Both the position numbers and the translations under genes were made by a program. Below the pieces are notes generated by a model, which was not told where the DNA came from, searched no databases, and saw only the letters and a list, made by a program, of their open reading frames with translations. A stretch of DNA of 64,000 nucleotides from Arenicola marina (lineage: Eukaryota > Annelida > Polychaeta > Arenicolidae): contig OZ025249.1 of NCBI GenBank assembly GCA_964019135.1, positions 17,385,088 to 17,449,087 of the forward strand. The letters are read 5' to 3'. Positions 10,125 to 61,760 of this stretch are shown in pieces. How positions within the stretch are numbered: position 1 is the first letter of the stretch; each line of letters opens with the position of its first letter.

Positions 10125-34049
<23,925 letters not shown>

Positions 34050-37927: not shown

Positions 37928-38147
37928 TTAAGGCATTTGAGGGGGCCTCCCTGGTGTAGTGGTTAGCGCACTAGACCGCAGATCAATAGGTCCTGGGTTC
38001 GAATCCGGGCTCGGGCACCTAATCTGGGGCATGTTTCATTCCTTCATCCTTCATCGTCTCGGGAGGTTCCTTGGCCCAATTTAGCCTGTATGTGCACAAA
38101 AGTGGCCTAAAACACCAACATTCCATTCCATTCCTTAAGTCATTTGA
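37928..38147 (+). mobile_element. Intact tRNA-derived SINE with target-site duplication
   Basis: The element is 37941-38134 (194 bp). Box A-like TGGTGTAGTGGTTAGCGCA and box B-like GGTTCGAATCC are present, then a body with TCGGGAGGTTCCTTGGCCCA and a TTCCATTCCATTCC tail. It is flanked by TTAAGGCATTTGA and TTAAGTCATTTGA (13 bp, one mismatch). It is about 98% like the copy at 61555. Confidence 0.93.
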
Positions 38148-44700: not shown

Positions 44701-47700
44701 CCCTGTAGGAATTACCGTTGGAAGGGCCAGAGTCCTGTGATCTTCATAGTGAGCGACAGTCCTGGCGGGGACTCCTCGGAGAGACGACTGTTCCCGAAGG
44801 AGCTGCAGACCGAGCTTGGCATATCCAACATAGGGTTGGTGTTTGGCCCCAGAGGTCATTGCTCATGTTATTTAGGTGCTAATTTAACACGAAGTGAACC
44901 GTTGATACTTACTATGCTTTAGAGATATCGATTGATTACGTTTGTGCTTAACCTCTGTATCGTAACATCATAATATATGTTGTTATAATTACATAACTAG
45001 CATTAAGAGTTAACCCTGTATCTCCCAATGACGTGTCTATGGGTTTAGCCCTACATCTCCCAATAACGTGTCTATGGGTTTAGCCCTACATCTCCCAATA
45101 ACGTGTCTATGAGTTTAGCCCTACATCTCCCAATAACGTGTCTATGGGTTTAACCCTATATCTCCCAATAACGTGTCTATGGGTTTAGCCCTACATCTCC
45201 CAATAACGTGTCTATGGGTTTAGCCCTACATCTCCCAATAACGTGTCTATGGGTTTAACCCTATATCTCCCAATAACGTGTCTATGGGTTTAACCCTATA
45301 TCTCCCAATAACGTGTCTATGGGTTTAGCCCTACATCTCCCAATAACGTGTCTATGGGTTTAGCCCTATATCTCCCAATAACGTGTCTATGGGTTTAACC
45401 CTATATCTCCCAATAACGTGTCTATGGGTTTAACCCTATATCTCCCAATAACGTGTCTATGGGTTTAGCCCTACATCTCCCAATAACGTGTCTATGGGTT
45501 TAACCCTATATCTCCCAATAACGTGTCTATGGGTTTAGCCCTATATCTCCCAATAACGTGTCTATGGGTTTAGCCCTACATCTCCCAATAACGTGTCTAT
45601 GGGTTTAGCCCTATATCTCCCAATAACGTGTCTATGGGTTTAACCCTATATCTCCCAATAACGTGTCTATGGGTTTAGCCCTACATCTCCCAATAACGTG
45701 TCTATGGGTTTAACCCTACATCTCCCAATAACGTGTCTATGGGTTTAGCCCTGTATCTCCCAATAACGTGTCTATGGGTTTAGCCCTACATCTCCCAATA
45801 ACGTGTCTATGGGTTTAACCCTATATCTCCCAATAACGTGTCTATCGTTCCCGACATGGTGTCCGCGGGATTGACCACATGTTGATTCCCAATACCGATT
45901 AACTCGCGGGTTCAACCCTATGGTTCCCACTATCGTACTCACGGGTTTAATCCTATGGTTCCCACTATCGTACTTACGGGTTTAATCCTATGGTTCCCAC
46001 TATCGTACTCACGGGTTTAATCCTATGGTTCCCACTATCGTACTCACGGGTTTAATCCTATGGTTCCCACTATCGTACTTACGGGTTTAACCCTATGGTT
46101 CCCACTATCGTACTCACGGGTTTAATCCTATGGTTCCCACTATCGTACTTACGGGTTTAATCCTATGGTTCCCACTATCGTACTTACGGGTTTAATCCTA
46201 TGGTTCCCACTATCGTACTCACGGGTTTAATCCTATGGTTCCCACTATCGTACTTACGGGTTTAATCCTATGGTTCCCACTATCGTACTCACGGGTTTAA
46301 TCCTATGGTTCCCACTATCGTACTCACGGGTTTAATCCTATGGTTCCCACTATCGTACTCACGGGTTTAATCCTATGGTTCCCACTATCGTACTTACGGG
46401 TTTAATCCTATGGTTCCCACTATCGTACTTACGGGTTTAATCCTATGGTTCCCACTATCGTACTTACGGGTTTAATCCTATGGTTCCCACTATCGTACTT
46501 ACGGGTTTAATCCTATGGTTCCCACTATCGTACTTACGGGTTTAATCCTATGGTTCCCGCTGTCGTACTTACGGGTTTAATCCTATGGTTCCCGCTGTCG
46601 TACTTACGGGTTTAATCCTATGGTTCCCACTATCGTACTCACGGGTTTAATCCTATGGTTCCCACTATCGTACTTACGGGTTTAATCCTATGGTTCCCAC
46701 TATCGTACTCACGGGTTTAATCCTATGGTTCCCACTATCGTACTCACGGGTTTAATCCTATGGTTCCCACTATCGTACTTACGGGTTTAACCCTATGGTT
46801 CCCACTATCGTACTTACGGGTTTAATCCTATGGTTCCCACTATCGTACTTACGGGTTTAATCCTATGGTTCCCACTATCGTACTTACGGGTTTAATCCTA
46901 TGGTTCCCGCTGTCGTACTTACGGGTTTAATCCTATGGTTCCCGCTATCGCACTCACGAGTTTAATCCTATGGTTCCCACTATCGTACTTACGGGTTTAA
47001 TCCTATGGTTCCCACTATCGTACTCACTTGTTTAATCCTATGGTTCCCACTATCGTACTCACGGGTTTAATCCTATGGTTCCCACTATCGTACTCACGGG
47101 TTTAACCCTATGGTTCCCACTATCGTACTTACGGGTTTAATCCTATGGTTCCCACTATCGTACTTACGGGTTTAATCCTATGGTTCCCACTATCGTACTT
47201 ACGGGTTTAATCCTATGGTTCCCGCTGTCGTACTTACGAGTTTAATCCTATGGTTCCCACTATCGTACTCACGGGTTTAACCCTATGGTTCCCGATACTA
47301 TGCCCGCGGGGTTAACCCTATGTCCGAGGGTTTCGCTACGGCTCTCAACTGAAACCGGGGGTTGCCTGCCAATAATTGTATACACCATTTTTACTCCATG
47401 CCCACCGTTACCTCTATCCACGGGTTTAACCCCGTGGCTCCAATTGCAATATTCACAGGTTTTACCCCAGTGGCTCCCATAACTCCATCCGCAGGTTTAA
47501 CCCCGTGGCTCCGACTGTAATGACCAAGACGTTGACTAGAGTTGCCACTGAGGAAGCGTCCAAGGTAGGTTTACTGGCCCGACCTTTGGACTAGCCGTTT
47601 TTTCATGTATAAGCCACTTCCACCCAGAATCGATTTCTGAAATGAACATTTAGGATTGATGTTACTCCTGGGCAATTTGACTTCATTTTTAATGAGTTTT

Positions 47701-48037
47701 ATAAAGGTATTTGACGTTGGTATGATGATTGTCAATTTCATGCTCACGATTAAGGAAAAAGGCGTGGTCGGGGCTTAGTGTCGGAGTGTGGATCCGTGTT
47801 ACCTGTTGCCGGGGACGGTGATCCGGCCATTTCGGTCCCGATATGCATCTTGTAGAGTTCCCATATCCTGCCACGTATATTTCACGTTCGCCTTTCGTAC
47901 TGTGTTGCTCTGATGTATATTTCAGAGCGGTCACATGTACAAGGCTCCCAGCAAGTCTGTGGTTGACAGTCTGGCGGCGACCTGCTCCGGGGACATCCGT
48001 GGTGCTATCAACAATCTGCAGTTCGCTTGCCTCAAAG
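41640..48037 (+). CDS. RAD17: RAD17 checkpoint clamp loader, spliced gene, N-terminal half in 9 exons
   Basis: RAD17 replaces RFC1 in a clamp-loader complex that loads the 9-1-1 ring at damaged DNA and promotes ATR-CHK1 signalling in the nucleus. Exon join: 41640-41756, 41920-42153, 42375-42458, 42812-42965, 43466-43602, 44343-44395, 44709-44834, 47495-47564, 47926-48037. The frame is continuous through all junctions (about 362 codons). Seen: SWVSSAFGDFD (human WVDPSFDDF), WADKHRPKTE, Walker A GPSGVGKT, QDW, FLLRADKYPSLQ, Walker B region LILVE|DFPNAFYRD, VIFIVSDSPGGD, RRLFPKELQ, SNIGFNPVAPT, and CSGDIRGAINNLQF near the sensor 2 region. Human RAD17 is about 670-680 residues; the C-terminal half is not seen. 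The start is the ATG pair at 41640/41643; the second has the better context. Confidence 0.93.
41920..42153 (+). CDS. RAD17: RAD17 exon 2
   Basis: The acceptor is CTCTTTTTGAAG at 41908-41919; the donor is GAG|GTATAT. It encodes TKSSWVSSAFGDFD, a Ser/Lys-rich stretch, and NDLWADKHRPKTE. The last matches human NEPWVDKYKPETQ, the conserved start of the clamp-loader domain. Confidence 0.87.
42375..42458 (+). CDS. RAD17: RAD17 exon 3
   Basis: The acceptor TCTATAAAG is weak in pyrimidines; the donor is CAG|GTGAGT. It encodes ADLAVHKKKVAEVQDWIQ, directly comparable with human ELAVHKKKIEEVETWL. 28 codons, phase 0 at both ends. Confidence 0.93.
42812..42965 (+). CDS. RAD17: RAD17 exon 4: Walker A
   Basis: The acceptor is CCTCCTGTCGCAG and the donor is G|GTCAGC. 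It encodes APMLLLTGPSGVGKTATVGV with the P-loop GPSGVGKT, then GVQIQDWVSPE (human GIQVQEWINPV). Confidence 0.96.
43017..43036 (+). mobile_element. tRNA-like SINE 5' fragment
   Basis: CCGATAGCTCAGTGGGTTAT repeats the start of the element at 7978. It breaks off directly, so it is a truncated or decayed copy in RAD17 intron 4. Confidence 0.45.
43466..43602 (+). CDS. RAD17: RAD17 exon 5
   Basis: The acceptor is GCATTGACAG and the donor is GAG|GTAGGT. It encodes QSQAAQFQDFLLRADKYPSL and ends HRKLILVE, the first part of Walker B. Human has AVFKEFLLRATKYNKLQ and KKIILVED. Confidence 0.95.
43678..44150. mobile_element. MITE-like element in RAD17 intron 5
   Basis: Inverted arms of about 30 bp: GCCAAAACGTCACAGTGACG near 43678, and CGTTTTCGTCACTATGGCAT near 44125 on the other arm; about 25 of 30 positions pair. 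Inner repeats GCTGCGTGGC/GCCACGCAGC add to the foldback character. No transposase. Confidence 0.6.
44343..44395 (+). CDS. RAD17: RAD17 exon 6
   Basis: The acceptor is TTTCTTTGACAG and the donor is AG|GTACTT; 53 bp. It encodes DFPNAFYRDAKEFHTIL, completing the Walker B ED pair (human EDLPNQFYRDSHTLHEVL). Confidence 0.95.
44709..44834 (+). CDS. RAD17: RAD17 exon 7
   Basis: The acceptor is TTGCCCTGTAG. It encodes SPVIFIVSDSPGGDSSERRL and FPKELQTELGISNIG. The donor is GG|GTTGGT, a weak GT site. It is chosen because it gives phase 2 and joins exon 8 as SNIGFNPVAPT (human SNISFNPVAPT). Confidence 0.92.
45008..45846 (+). repeat. 35-bp minisatellite A in RAD17 intron 7
   Basis: About 24 copies of GGGTTTAGCCCTACATCTCC plus CAATAACGTGTCTAT. 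The AGCCCTACA/AACCCTATA variants are mixed. It aligns in register with array B (about 23 of 35 positions). Confidence 0.96.
45905..47290 (+). repeat. 35-bp minisatellite B in RAD17 intron 7
   Basis: About 39 copies of GGGTTTAATCCTATGGTTCC plus CACTATCGTACTTAC. Each unit can be read GFNPMVPTIVLT, close to the exon 8 start GFNPVAPTVMT. Confidence 0.97.
47291..47494 (+). repeat. Degenerate 35-36-bp units joining array B to RAD17 exon 8
   Basis: Eroded units include GGGTTTAACCCCGTGGCTCC at 47422 and GGTTTTACCCCAGTGGCTCC at 47458. The next unit in series is the real exon start, GGTTTAACCCCGTGGCTCC, at 47494. Confidence 0.85.
47495..47564 (+). CDS. RAD17: RAD17 exon 8
   Basis: The acceptor is CCATCCGCAG at 47485-47494 and the donor is AAG|GTAGGT; 70 bp. 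It encodes FNPVAPTVMTKTLTRVATEE followed by ASK; human has FNPVAPTIMMKFLNRIVTIE. The first 35 bases of this junction have the same period and pattern as the tandem repeat filling the preceding intron. Confidence 0.94.
47926..48037 (+). CDS. RAD17: RAD17 exon 9 (last one visible)
   Basis: The acceptor is TGTATATTTCAG and the donor is AAAG|GTCGGT, a non-consensus but GT site. It encodes SGHMYKAPSKSVVDSLAATC and SGDIRGAINNLQFACLKG, matching human CSGDIRSAINSLQFSSSKG. It ends in phase 1. No continuation exon was recognised downstream. Confidence 0.94.
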
Positions 48038-50060
48038 GTCGGTTTAAATTCGCTTGAAGTCAACCTCTATGCTTATTTGAAATGCACACACCGTTCACAT
48101 CCGGTGCACGTAGGGGCACTGGCACCAACCTTCTCTCATCAATCACCTTTCAATCAGCCACCATCTTCTCCCGATTGTTCCGTGCTGTTTGGAACGAGTC
48201 ACATCGGCATACCGAATGGATGCGCGCGCATCCATACCCGGGTGAAAGAAGTGTCGGGCGGTGAATGTGGTAAATGCAGGCGTGAGTAATACGTGAGCTA
48301 TATTGAAACAAGTTTAGCTTGAGGTATTGTCTCGTTATAGCTCGCACATTTCTCCTGTGCTACAGTAATTGATTTTGTGGACCCGTAAAGATAATCTCCG
48401 TGGACACAATAACCCCTCCAGAACCATGGACGGGCGCGCTATGATATGGTTTGGATACTGATCGAATCCAAGATATCAACCTCATCGTTGTAACCTCACG
48501 TGGGCAGGTTGATCTTGGCTATCTGTTCTCTAGACCCTGTTTTGTTGTCATGTCTAGATATGGCGATGAACATCTGATTGTTATTCCATTACAGTCTAAA
48601 GAATTCGATTACTTGACAGTTTCTGTGGTTTGGACCTGTATTTCATTAGAGCTTAGACTCATCGAATTCTCACACGAAACGTGTAGTCGGCATGTATTGA
48701 CTGGCCTTTATGTGGATGAAGTATTGTTTTACCCTACGACAACGCGCATTTACTGATTATTCTCGGCCGGAGTTCACTAGGCCAAGGTCAAGGTCAATAG
48801 TGACATGGACCCGGGCAGACATATATAGGGCGATAAACGGCGCACACACATTATTGAATACATAATGCAGGAGTTTGTTAATCTATCGCTGTCTTTGTAT
48901 CCACAATTCCGTCCCCCAAAATGAGATTCTGTGTTGCTTGCCGTTGTTTTTGTTGCCTGGCCTGACCCATAATCAGAAAACGACGGGTCTCGTACGATGA
49001 AGACATTTTGATGAATAGCTTTAAGTTCTTAATGTGGCGTTGGTTGGCCAGAACCTCCACCGTGTCTCCTTTAGTCGTCAGGTTGAACGCTTAAAACGAC
49101 CCAAGAATAACGGCTCAATAATCGCGTCTCGTCTTCCTTAATATGACACACTCGGATGCATTTAAAGGCATGGCGGTTTACATGGCATCCCACTGCTCCT
49201 CTCACCGTCAGACTACACCCCCCCCCCCCCGCCCACGTCCTCTTCCCCTCCCCGCTTCTCCCTTCCGCCAAAAGGGGAAAAACAGGGGTCCGGTTGTCAT
49301 TGTGACCGGTTTTGCTGGTTCTTATTGGTGTGTAGGGACCCATGTAGTAGAGTTGGTGGAGGTTGCGGTGAGGGAAAAAAGGAGGCCGCGGATTAAGAAG
49401 ATAGAGATGGCGGGAAAGCCGAGTTGTCTTGTCGGGTGGTTGCGACGCAAGGAACGCCGGGTCGGGCTGATTGAGGCGTGGTTAAGTGATGAACCGCCTC
49501 GGAGCACGGTACTGATGGGCCATGTCACTGCCGCCCCATGAACCCCCCCCCCCCCACTCACGTCCTCACGTCCCCGTCCCCCGCGTCTCCGGCCGATTGT
49601 GCTAAGTAAGTGACTGTGGGGGGTAGTGGGTCAAACACCGATATTAAGGCTGCCTTGCTTCCTGTGTTTTGCTGCCTTCCTTCTGGTGCGGATCCTGGTG
49701 GCCGCCTCCGCGCTGGCTGGTCTCCCCCCCTCCCCCCCGGCCTTTTATGTGGTTCTTGTTGGTTCTGGGTGCGGCAGACTTCAACCCATTTCCATGGGAA
49801 TTAATTCTTCTCGGGAAGCGTATCAATTGCTTGTTGGCCCGTCTGATGCCGGTGTAATGTCCCCCCCCCCCAGTTCGGTCGTATCCCCCCCCCCCTCGCC
49901 CACACCGCCTGCCGTCTGCCGCTTCCCTGCCTCCGCCCGCCCGCCCGCCCGCCTACCCACCTCATGGCCTTTGTCCCACCCACCGGGCCGCACGCTAAGC
50001 TCGGATATACGACCTGATTGGGGATTAGAACGCCTCGGTCGTCTACAGCATGGCGGCTGA
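48038..50060. other. RAD17 intron 9 or downstream DNA, first part
   Basis: No exon recognised. C-homopolymer and C/T-rich tracts at 49207, 49542, 49860 and 49880-49970. Confidence 0.45.
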
Positions 50061-50069
50061 CCGAATCCC

Positions 50070-52690
50070 AAGGACCGGCCCGCCGAACCTCAAGCCCCGG
50101 CCCACCGTGCCTCAAGGACCGGCCCCCGTGCCTCAAAGACCGGCCCGCCGTGCCTCAAGCCCCGGCCCACCGTGCCTCAAGGACCGGGCCCCGTACCTCA
50201 AGCCCCGGCCCACCGTGCCTCAAGGACCGGCCCCCGTGCCTCAAGCCCCGGCCCGCCGTGCCTCAAGCCCCGGCCCACCGTGCCTCAAGGACCGGGCCCC
50301 GTACCTCAAGCCCCGGCCCACCGTGCCTCAAGGACCGGCCCCCGTGCCTCAAGCCCCGGCCCACCGTGCCTCAAGGACCGGCCCACCGTGCCTCAAGGAC
50401 CGGCCCGCCCTGCCTCAAGGACCGGCCCGCCGTACCTCAAGGACCGGCCCGCCGTGCCTCAAGGACCGGCCCGCCGTGCCTCAAGGACCGGCCCACCGTA
50501 CCTCAAGCCCCGGCCCACCGTGCCTCAAGGACCGGCCCGCCCTGCCTCAAGCCCCGGCCCACCGTGCCTCAAGGACCGGCCCGCCCTGCCTCAAGGACCG
50601 GCCCGCCGTACCTCAGGCCCCGGCCCACCGTGCCTCAAGGACCGGCCCGCCCTGCCTCAAGGACCGGCCCCCGTGCCTCAAGAACCGGCCCGCCGTGCCT
50701 CAAGGACGGACCCGCTGTACCTCAAAGACCGGCCCGCCCTGCCTCAAGGACCGGCCCGCCCTGCCTCAAGGACCGGCCCACCGTGCCTCAAGGACCGGCC
50801 CGCCGTGCCTCAAGCCCCGGCCCACCGTGCCTCAAGGACCGGCCCGCCCTGCCTCAAGCCCCGGCCCGCCGTGCCTCAAGCCCCGGCCCACCGTGCCTCA
50901 AGGACCGGCCCGCCCTGCCTCAAGGACCGGCCCGCCGTGCCTCAAGCCCCGGCCCGCCCTGCCTCAAGGACCGGCCCGCCCTGCCTCAAGGACCGGCCCG
51001 CCGTGCCTCAAGCCCCGGCCCGCCCTGCCTCAAGGACCGGCCCGCCCTGCCTCAAGGACCGGCCCGCCGTGCCTCAAGGACCGGCCCGCCGTGCCTCAAG
51101 CCCCGGCCCACCGTGCCTCAAGGACCGGCCCGCCCTGCCTCAAGCCCCGGCCCGCCGTACCTCAAGGACCGGCCCGCCCTGCCTCAAGCCCCGGCCCGCC
51201 GTACCTCAAGCCCCGGCCCACCGAGCCTCAAGGACCGGCCCGCCCTGCCTCAAGGACCGGCCCGCCGTACCTCAGGCCCCGGCCCACCGTGCCTCAAGGA
51301 CCGGCCCGCCCTGCCTCAAGGACCGGCCCCCGTGCCTCAAGGACCGGCCCCCGTGCCTCAAGGACCGGCCCCCGTGCCTCAAGGACCGGCCCGCCGTGCC
51401 TCAAGGACGGACCCGCTGTACCTCAAAGACCGGCCCGCCCTGCCTCAAGGACCGGCCTGCCGTACCTCAAGGACCGGCCCGCTGTGCCTCAAAGACCGGC
51501 CCGCCCTGCCTGAAGGACCGGCCCCCCTGCCTCAAGGACCGACCCGCCGTACCTCAAGGACCGGCCCGCCCTGCCTCAAAGACCGGCCGTTGTACCTCAA
51601 GGACCGGCCCGCCCTGCCTCAAGGACCGGCCCGCCCTGCCTCAAGGACCGGCCCGCCCTGCCTCAAAGACCGGCCCGCCCTGCCTCAAAGACCGGCCCGC
51701 CCTGCCTCAAGGACCGGCCCGCCCTGCCTGAAGGACCGGCCCCCCTGCCTCAAGGACCGACCCGCCGTACCTCACGGACCGGCCCGCCCTGCCTCAAAGA
51801 CCGGCCGTTGTACCTCAAGGACCGGCCCGCCCTGCCTCAAGGACCGGCCCGCCCTGCCTCAAGGACCGGCCCGCCCTGCCTCAAGGACGGACCCGCCGTA
51901 CCTCAAAGACCGGCCCGCCCTGCCTCAAGGACCGGCCCGCCCTGCCTCAAGGACCGGCCCGCCCTGCCTCAAGGACCGGCCCGCCCTGCCTCAAGGACGG
52001 ACCCGCCGTACCTCAAGGACCGACCCGCCCTGCCTCAAGGACCGGCCCGCCCTGCCTCAAGGACCGGCCCGCCGTACCTCAAAGACCGGCCCCCCTGCCT
52101 CAAGGACCGACCCGCCGTACCTCAAGGACCGGCCCGCCCTGCCTCAAAGACCGGCCGTTGTACCTCAAGGACCGGCCCGCCCTGCCTCAAGGACCGGCCC
52201 GCCCTGCCTCAAGGACCGGCCCGCCCTGCCTCAAGGACCGGCCCGCCCTGCCTCAAGGACGGACCCGCCGTACCTCAAAGACCGGCCCGCCCTGCCTCAA
52301 GGACCGGCCTGACGTACCTCAAGGACCAGCCCGCTGTGACTCAAGGACCGGCCCGCCTTACCTCAAGGACCGGCCCGCCCTGCCTCAAGAACCGGCCCGC
52401 CCTGCCTCAAAGACCGGCCCGCCCTGCCTCAAGGACCGGCCCGCCCTGCCTCAAGGACCGGCCCGCTGTACCTCAAAGACCAGCCCACCGTGCCTCAAGG
52501 ACCAGCCCACCGTGCCTCAAGGACCAACCCGCCGTGCCCCAAAGACCGGCCCGCCCTGCCTCAAGGACCGGCCCGCCCTGCCTCAAGGACCGGCCCGCCC
52601 TGCCTCAAGGACCGGCCCGCTGTACCTCAAAGACCAGCCCGCCGTGCCTCAAGGACCAACCCGCCGTGCCCCAAGAACCAGCCCGCACTT
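50070..52690 (+). repeat. 22-bp GC-rich satellite, about 120 copies
   Basis: Unit GGACCGGCCCGCCCTGCCTC plus AA, with variants (GGCCCACCGTGCCTC, AGCCCCGGCC, CCGTACCTC). Because 22 is not a multiple of three and the unit has no stop in any + frame, very long open frames arise in all three frames. Confidence 0.97.
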
Positions 52691-61542: not shown

Positions 61543-61760
61543 AAAGTCTGTCTGAGGGGCCTCCCTGGTGTAGTGGTTAGCGCACTAGACCGCAGATCAA
61601 TAGGTCCTGGGTTCGAATCCGGGCTCGGGCACCTAATCTAGGGCATGTTTCATTCCTTCATCCTTCATCGTCTCGGGAGGTTCCTTGGCCCAATTTAGCC
61701 TGTATGTGCACAACAGTGGCCTAAAACACCAACATTCCATTCCATTCCAAAGTCTGTCTG
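61543..61760 (+). mobile_element. Intact tRNA-derived SINE, second copy, perfect 12-bp TSD
   Basis: The element is 61555-61748 (194 bp), the same length as the copy at 37941 with only a few substitutions. It is flanked on both sides by AAAGTCTGTCTG, a perfect target-site duplication, so the insertion is young. Confidence 0.95.

Follow-up and report, generated by a model that had tools for sequence, protein, structure and literature searches.

A mirage-type minisatellite at a splice junction of RAD17, and similar arrays at other exon edges, in the annelid Arenicola marina

Introduction

The term mirages was coined in amphioxus for tandem repeats that lie over intron-exon boundaries; the genes reported to carry them there are Adh3, the globin genes BflGb6 and BflGb9, and TnC (PMC3087553, PMC3902484). 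In the available text of these papers, mirages occur on the acceptor or the donor side, their units measure from 10 to about 160 bp, and many units carry the AG or GT. Two haplotypes of BflGb6 differ in their mirage, one having 6 units and the other 3 (PMC3087553). RT-PCR was reported to suggest that mirages do not interfere with regular splicing, and they were proposed as a source of new introns (PMC3087553). A second lancelet paper, which cites TnC, adds PGBD5, whose imperfect tandem repeats of 60 and 108 bp likewise coincide with or overlap splice sites (PMC3902484).

Two further systems are related in part, as far as the accessible portions of the reports go. The potato RdRp gene gained an intron through one duplication over a junction, reaching from the 3' end of an intron into the beginning of the following exon (PMC4974935). 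Intron 1 of the earthworm metallothionein gene contains minisatellites, for which the accessible portion of the report states no exon-edge origin (PMC12783039). Among the papers listed by searches of the open-licence literature we recognised no report of mirages outside lancelets or in annelids.

Here we describe a minisatellite in intron 7 of RAD17 of the polychaete Arenicola marina, together with a small survey of exon edges in the same genome. The RAD17 array is a long mirage in another phylum. The original prediction, made from the letters of this DNA alone, had regarded a minisatellite grown from a coding exon's own splice junction as a class not yet described; the class is in fact already known, as the amphioxus mirages are of the same kind, minisatellite-like and spanning the host's own intron-exon boundary (PMC3087553, PMC3902484). 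By the published text available for those mirages, the RAD17 array differs in being from an annelid, in its roughly 63 copies compared with the 6 and 3 of BflGb6, and in the loss of the AG. Moreover, the amphioxus mirages were described from single genes whereas the annelid has them at many exon edges in a small survey, and the 108-bp repeat of PGBD5 differs in being a triplication, in a lancelet (PMC3902484). The junction crossed in potato RdRp is of the same type as in RAD17, but there the result was described as a new spliced intron, while in RAD17 the copies remain within the existing intron and no new intron is evident (PMC4974935). The earthworm minisatellites resemble the RAD17 array in being both annelid and intronic (PMC12783039).

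Results

RAD17 and its longest intron

The window, that is, the whole stretch of 64,000 nucleotides that was analysed (contig OZ025249.1 of assembly GCA_964019135.1), holds the RAD17 gene at positions 42-48 kb. An annelid host, and not a lancelet, is supported by a 15.9-kb contig of the assembly, which encodes a COX1 with its best hits among polychaete annelids (best Pilargis wolfi, 91%) and an ND4 closest to Abarenicola (72%). When compared with human RAD17 (7z6h), the joined exon translations of the RAD17 gene gave an E value of 1e-71. In the RAD17 HMM, exons 7, 8 and 9 lie end to end at 201-243, 244-266 and 267-305, and across exon 8 the human sequence SFNPVAPT is aligned with GFNPVAPT, so that FNPVAPT is common to both. 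Exon 8 is therefore a real exon. The features of this part of the gene, all on the forward strand, are as follows.

44709..44834, + strand: RAD17 exon 7, ending ...LGISNI (human RAD17 alignment, RAD17 HMM)
44835..47494, + strand: RAD17 intron 7, 2660 nt
47493..47494, + strand: acceptor AG of exon 8
47495..47564, + strand: RAD17 exon 8, FNPVAPTVMTKTLTRVATEEASK, the apparent source of the repeats (human RAD17 alignment, RAD17 HMM)
47928..48038, + strand: RAD17 exon 9, adjoining exon 8 in the RAD17 HMM, with approximate limits

Intron 7 is the longest of the seven RAD17 introns that were modelled, the other six measuring approximately 0.2-0.75 kb, and two 35-bp minisatellites, which we call arrays A and B, make up the bulk of it. 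The window as a whole is rich in minisatellites (48 rows from Tandem Repeats Finder, TRF, for example 50069-52686, 22 bp x 119.7, and 28011-30505, 74 bp x 34.3). It also contains a near-identical stretch twice, at about 37944-38110 and 61555-61724 (open reading frames VVVSALDRRSIGPGFESGLGHLI and RTRPQINRSWVRIRARAPNLGHVSFLHP); we take its GPGFES part to resemble a tRNA B box, and the stretch may be a tRNA-derived dispersed repeat.

Homology of the repeats to the exon 8 junction

The repeats and the sequence between them and exon 8 were divided as follows.

45010..45845, + strand: array A, 35 bp x 23.9, consensus GGGTTTAGCCCTATATCTCCCAATAACGTGTCTAT (TRF)
45846..45906, + strand: degenerate stretch between the arrays, weak (score reached by 8/300 shuffles for A and 31/300 for B)
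45907..47293, + strand: array B, 35 bp x 39.6, consensus GGGTTTAATCCTATGGTTCCCACTATCGTACTTAC (TRF)
47294..47421, + strand: degenerate stretch 3' of array B, most of it without clear repeat origin
47423..47457, + strand: unit -2, identical to the start of exon 8 at 24 of 27 nt, with the acceptor AG now GG
47458..47493, + strand: unit -1, 36 nt and thus one base longer, starting at the G of the AG at 47457-47458; a second AG lies inside it at 47469-47470

With 63.5 copies over 2.2 kb in A and B together (TRF), the array has nearly the size originally predicted, about 65 units and 2.4 kb. Its units are not identical to each other and carry interspersed variants.

Array B is homologous to the junction. 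Its consensus aligned to positions 47490-47525 with a local score of 13, which was equalled by none of 1000 dinucleotide shuffles, and its translation in the frame of exon 8 is FNPMVPTIV. Of the first 23 nt of exon 8, B units match 18-19 positions, compared with 16 at the best site outside the region. Unit -2 is closer still: it aligned to the exon 8 junction over 42 nt (15 intronic and 27 exonic) at 83% identity (E 0.002), and its translation retains FNPVAP. When we searched both strands of the window outside the arrays for 35-mers resembling the B unit, position 47422 was the best (23/35) and the junction itself, at 47493, the second (21/35); taken alone this ranking is weak, as several unrelated sites in the window reach 20/35. 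Finally, a 120-bp query spanning the acceptor, run against the animal's own 867-Mb assembly (762 contigs), gave only itself and unit -2 among the matches reported, in a search that scores the best candidates only and skips common words.

The link of array A to the junction is weak taken by itself (score 9, equalled by 41 of 1000 shuffles). Array A is, on the other hand, clearly related to array B as judged from their sequences: the two scored 28 against each other, with a maximum of 23 among 500 shuffles. The expectation that the units would align to the exon better than shuffled sequence was thus borne out for array B and less firmly for array A. Likewise, the prediction that repeats in a common register continue up to the exon held for array B and the last two units, but 47305-47421 is not clearly derived from the repeat: its score was reached by 16 of 300 shuffles for B, 20 of 300 for A and 49 of 300 for unit -2. 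As a mirage, then, the locus is a minisatellite-like tandem array (35 bp x 23.9 and x 39.6 by TRF) whose unit spans the host's intron-exon boundary in array B and unit -2, and does so weakly in array A.

Since FNPVAPT is present in human RAD17, exon 8 is the source of the array and the exonic copy is the ancestral one, as originally proposed. Array B departs from the first 23 nt of exon 8 at five positions, four of them C>T or G>A, which fits the decay of a copy. These comparisons support the descent of the intron 7 array from the splice junction of exon 8.

Arrays at exon edges of other genes

The survey covered two gene families with their flanking DNA, AAA (21 HMM matches) and kinesin (133 matches, of which the 67 in sampled sequence were used). 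Exons were picked without regard to repeats; ten regions and a myosin region were selected by exon density with their sequence unseen. From 88 exons we removed one near-identical duplicate and eight on the foreign-looking contigs C356, C390, C465, C504, C536 and C747, leaving 79; the similarity test also took in six RAD17 exons. Contigs C390, C536 and C747 (L034, L035/L037 and L014) have in-frame TAA or TAG where glutamate is expected in kinesin or AAA motifs (LVDLAGS*RVSK in C390 and C536, LLS*MDGF in C747), and in-frame TAA or TAG was also present in C356, C465 and C504. We take C390, C536 and C747 to look ciliate, with stops read as glutamate as in a peritrich-type code; the ciliate-like contigs probably represent an epibiont or a contaminant in the assembly.

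The 45 nt at either end of each match were compared with as much as 2 kb of neighbouring DNA, the reverse complement of which served as a control, with a cut-off score of 16. Acceptor edges scored at least 16 in 9/85 cases in direct orientation and 1/85 inverted, donor edges in 12/85 and 0/85, and exon middles in 3/75 and 0/75. Four of the 21 high-scoring edges are probably not mirages, which would leave 17 of 170 edges. Three of these were judged by their coordinates, namely two edges from a pair of neighbouring AAA exons on C1 and the kinesin edge C12:22841529; the fourth, C13:39079656, is an intron-only array. Conversely, an array of about 18 copies at C13:32060930 escaped the test, as the HMM match stops short of the exon end there.

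The edges form a series from one extra copy up to about 47 copies. A single extra copy was seen at the AAA edges C18:27253252 and C10:11281908 and, in partial form, at the kinesin edge C14:31502052, and a few degenerate copies at C17:1217539 and C14:31495142. Among the long arrays, C14:6742300 has 29 copies of KLNLVDLAGSERQGKTG plus the donor gt, and C14:21551797 has an array on each side, 16 copies of LANLGNVIMALANK plus the donor at 99% identity and 46.7 copies at the acceptor. In another array the P-loop end YGQTGSGKSY is repeated in 7.6 copies. The structure found at RAD17 thus recurs at exon edges elsewhere in the genome.

Separately, we counted TRF arrays, 59 of them in 160,483 bp, and called an array a straddler if it overlapped an exon edge by at least 8 nt. 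Twelve of the 59 were straddlers as counted and 11 without one repeat that is intronic only. A model of uniform birth predicts about 2.0 (Poisson 8e-6); it is a simple null and takes no account of selection or of how long arrays last. At a looser TRF threshold 13 of 86 arrays straddled, and 11 against the 3.3 expected there gives P = 6e-4. All 11 contain exonic bases (8-66 nt, measured in nine and visible in the sequence of the other two). The count comes from few genes, with 5 of the 11 straddlers in two kinesin genes. Some other arrays start about 3-10 nt from the matched exon end and contain no exon sequence (C2:59066542, C6:1064697).

In a myosin gene, two donor-straddling arrays were found among seven exons (7 of 77 myosin matches were used). 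Neither reached a score of 16 in the 45-mer comparison, which therefore misses short exonic parts. At C4:367768-384767, myosin-head HMM segments of about 89-154 and 590-640 each recur four to five times at intervals of about 1 kb, a pattern resembling clustered alternative exons of muscle myosin.

These data suggest that arrays start or persist at exon edges more often than elsewhere in introns, in the three gene families and RAD17 that make up our small sample. One explanation is a pure boundary effect, in which duplications arise uniformly and are purged in exons, those that cross a junction survive by being spliced out, and the edges themselves are not special. It concerns the preference for junctions and not the origin of the RAD17 array. 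Several observations agree with it: intron-only arrays are common, with TRF arrays covering about 24% of the sequence outside exons in the AAA and kinesin regions sampled (for example L060 and L057); GC content is alike (mean 0.55 in straddlers, 0.50 in intron-only arrays); and periods modulo 3 are evenly distributed in both classes, so that no preference for frame-preserving unit lengths was seen in either. The excess of straddlers over the uniform expectation at both thresholds speaks against it, with the proviso that the null ignores array lifetime. We regard a pure boundary effect as quite plausible, a little short of probable. A G/C homopolymer run of at least 7 as a trigger was unsupported (2 of 11 straddlers and 1 of 48 other arrays, P = 0.086).

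Splice dinucleotides in the repeat copies

To compare the dinucleotide at the splice position, RAD17 sites were scored at 62% identity to the junction and sites in the other arrays at 72% or more, the true site being included in each case. The 57 RAD17 sites had AG at the true acceptor only (53 GG, 2 GA and 1 TT); the AG of unit -1 sits one base outside the scored register. The predicted loss of the acceptor AG from the RAD17 units is therefore confirmed. In contrast, the other exon-edge arrays mostly kept theirs: donor GT was retained in 28/29, 17/17, 30/30, 15/15, 17/18, 3/3, 3/4, 3/4 and 5/11 scored sites, and acceptor AG in 36/43, 12/14, 6/9, 2/3 and 1/5. Given this retention, the accompanying idea that AG loss prevents mis-splicing is unsupported as a general safeguard. 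Splice-site decay is one fate among exon-edge arrays and not a rule.

It could also be speculated that the upstream copies serve splicing as alternative or decoy acceptors, which in RAD17 would add 12 or 8 residues through the AGs at 47457 and 47469. Both of these AGs are in frame and free of stops (+36 nt, LGISNIGFYPSGSHNSIRRFNPVAPT, and +24 nt, LGISNIGGSHNSIRRFNPVAPT), and the retention of most splice dinucleotides in the other arrays would suit such a role. This is nevertheless improbable, as no scored RAD17 site other than the true acceptor has an AG in register, the 35-bp period is not divisible by 3, and the amphioxus mirages are said, in the available text, to leave splicing undisturbed (PMC3087553).

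Discussion

The RAD17 array is very probably a mirage-type minisatellite that arose by near-neutral tandem duplication and expansion while selection held the exon copy. We infer that an error of replication or repair would have copied about 35 bp, made up of the acceptor end of intron 7 and some 25 nt from the start of exon 8. Such copies would fall on the intron side, where splicing at the exon-proximal acceptor would remove them, and they would for this reason be nearly neutral. Arrays A and B may then have grown from them, and become homogeneous, by slippage or unequal exchange, while the exonic copy would have stayed unchanged under purifying selection on FNPVAPT.

Two other explanations of the exon-edge repeats have little to recommend them. 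The assembler might have created or over-expanded them, and the copy numbers of the long arrays are uncheckable from an assembly without reads; the variants interspersed between units, the cases that consist of a single diverged duplication, and the locus-specific periods make such an artefact very unlikely. A chance resemblance of an unrelated intronic minisatellite to the start of exon 8 might be entertained from the result for array A alone, from the unrelated sites that match the B unit almost as well as the exon does (20/35 and 21/35) and from the occurrence of the GGGTTTAACCC word elsewhere in the window (57289), but its probability is negligible given the shuffle result for array B, the 24/27 exonic identity of the exon-adjacent unit -2, the lack of any further match reported in the genome, and the similar pattern at other exons.

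A more general reading can be offered tentatively, as a possibility we do not favour. Exon-intron junctions may be preferred birthplaces of minisatellites in this annelid, through a junction-linked process that would repeatedly duplicate exon edges, seed a sizeable share of the intronic repeats and drive intron growth; stalling of replication or transcription, R-loops and splicing-linked breaks are candidates for this process. If it is true, the spliceosome would have to single out one donor from as many as about 30 nearly identical copies, and the annelid arrays would be a convergent, genome-scale counterpart of the lancelet mirages.

Exon-edge arrays also carry a warning for gene predictors, as they hold real coding sequence. 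Mirages have so far come from a handful of lancelet genes and have been proposed as raw material for new introns. Their presence at about one in ten exon edges in our small annelid sample, with anything from a single extra copy to dozens, makes intron growth testable, and likewise the way in which the spliceosome settles on the right site where an exon end occurs with its GT in 17-30 tandem copies.
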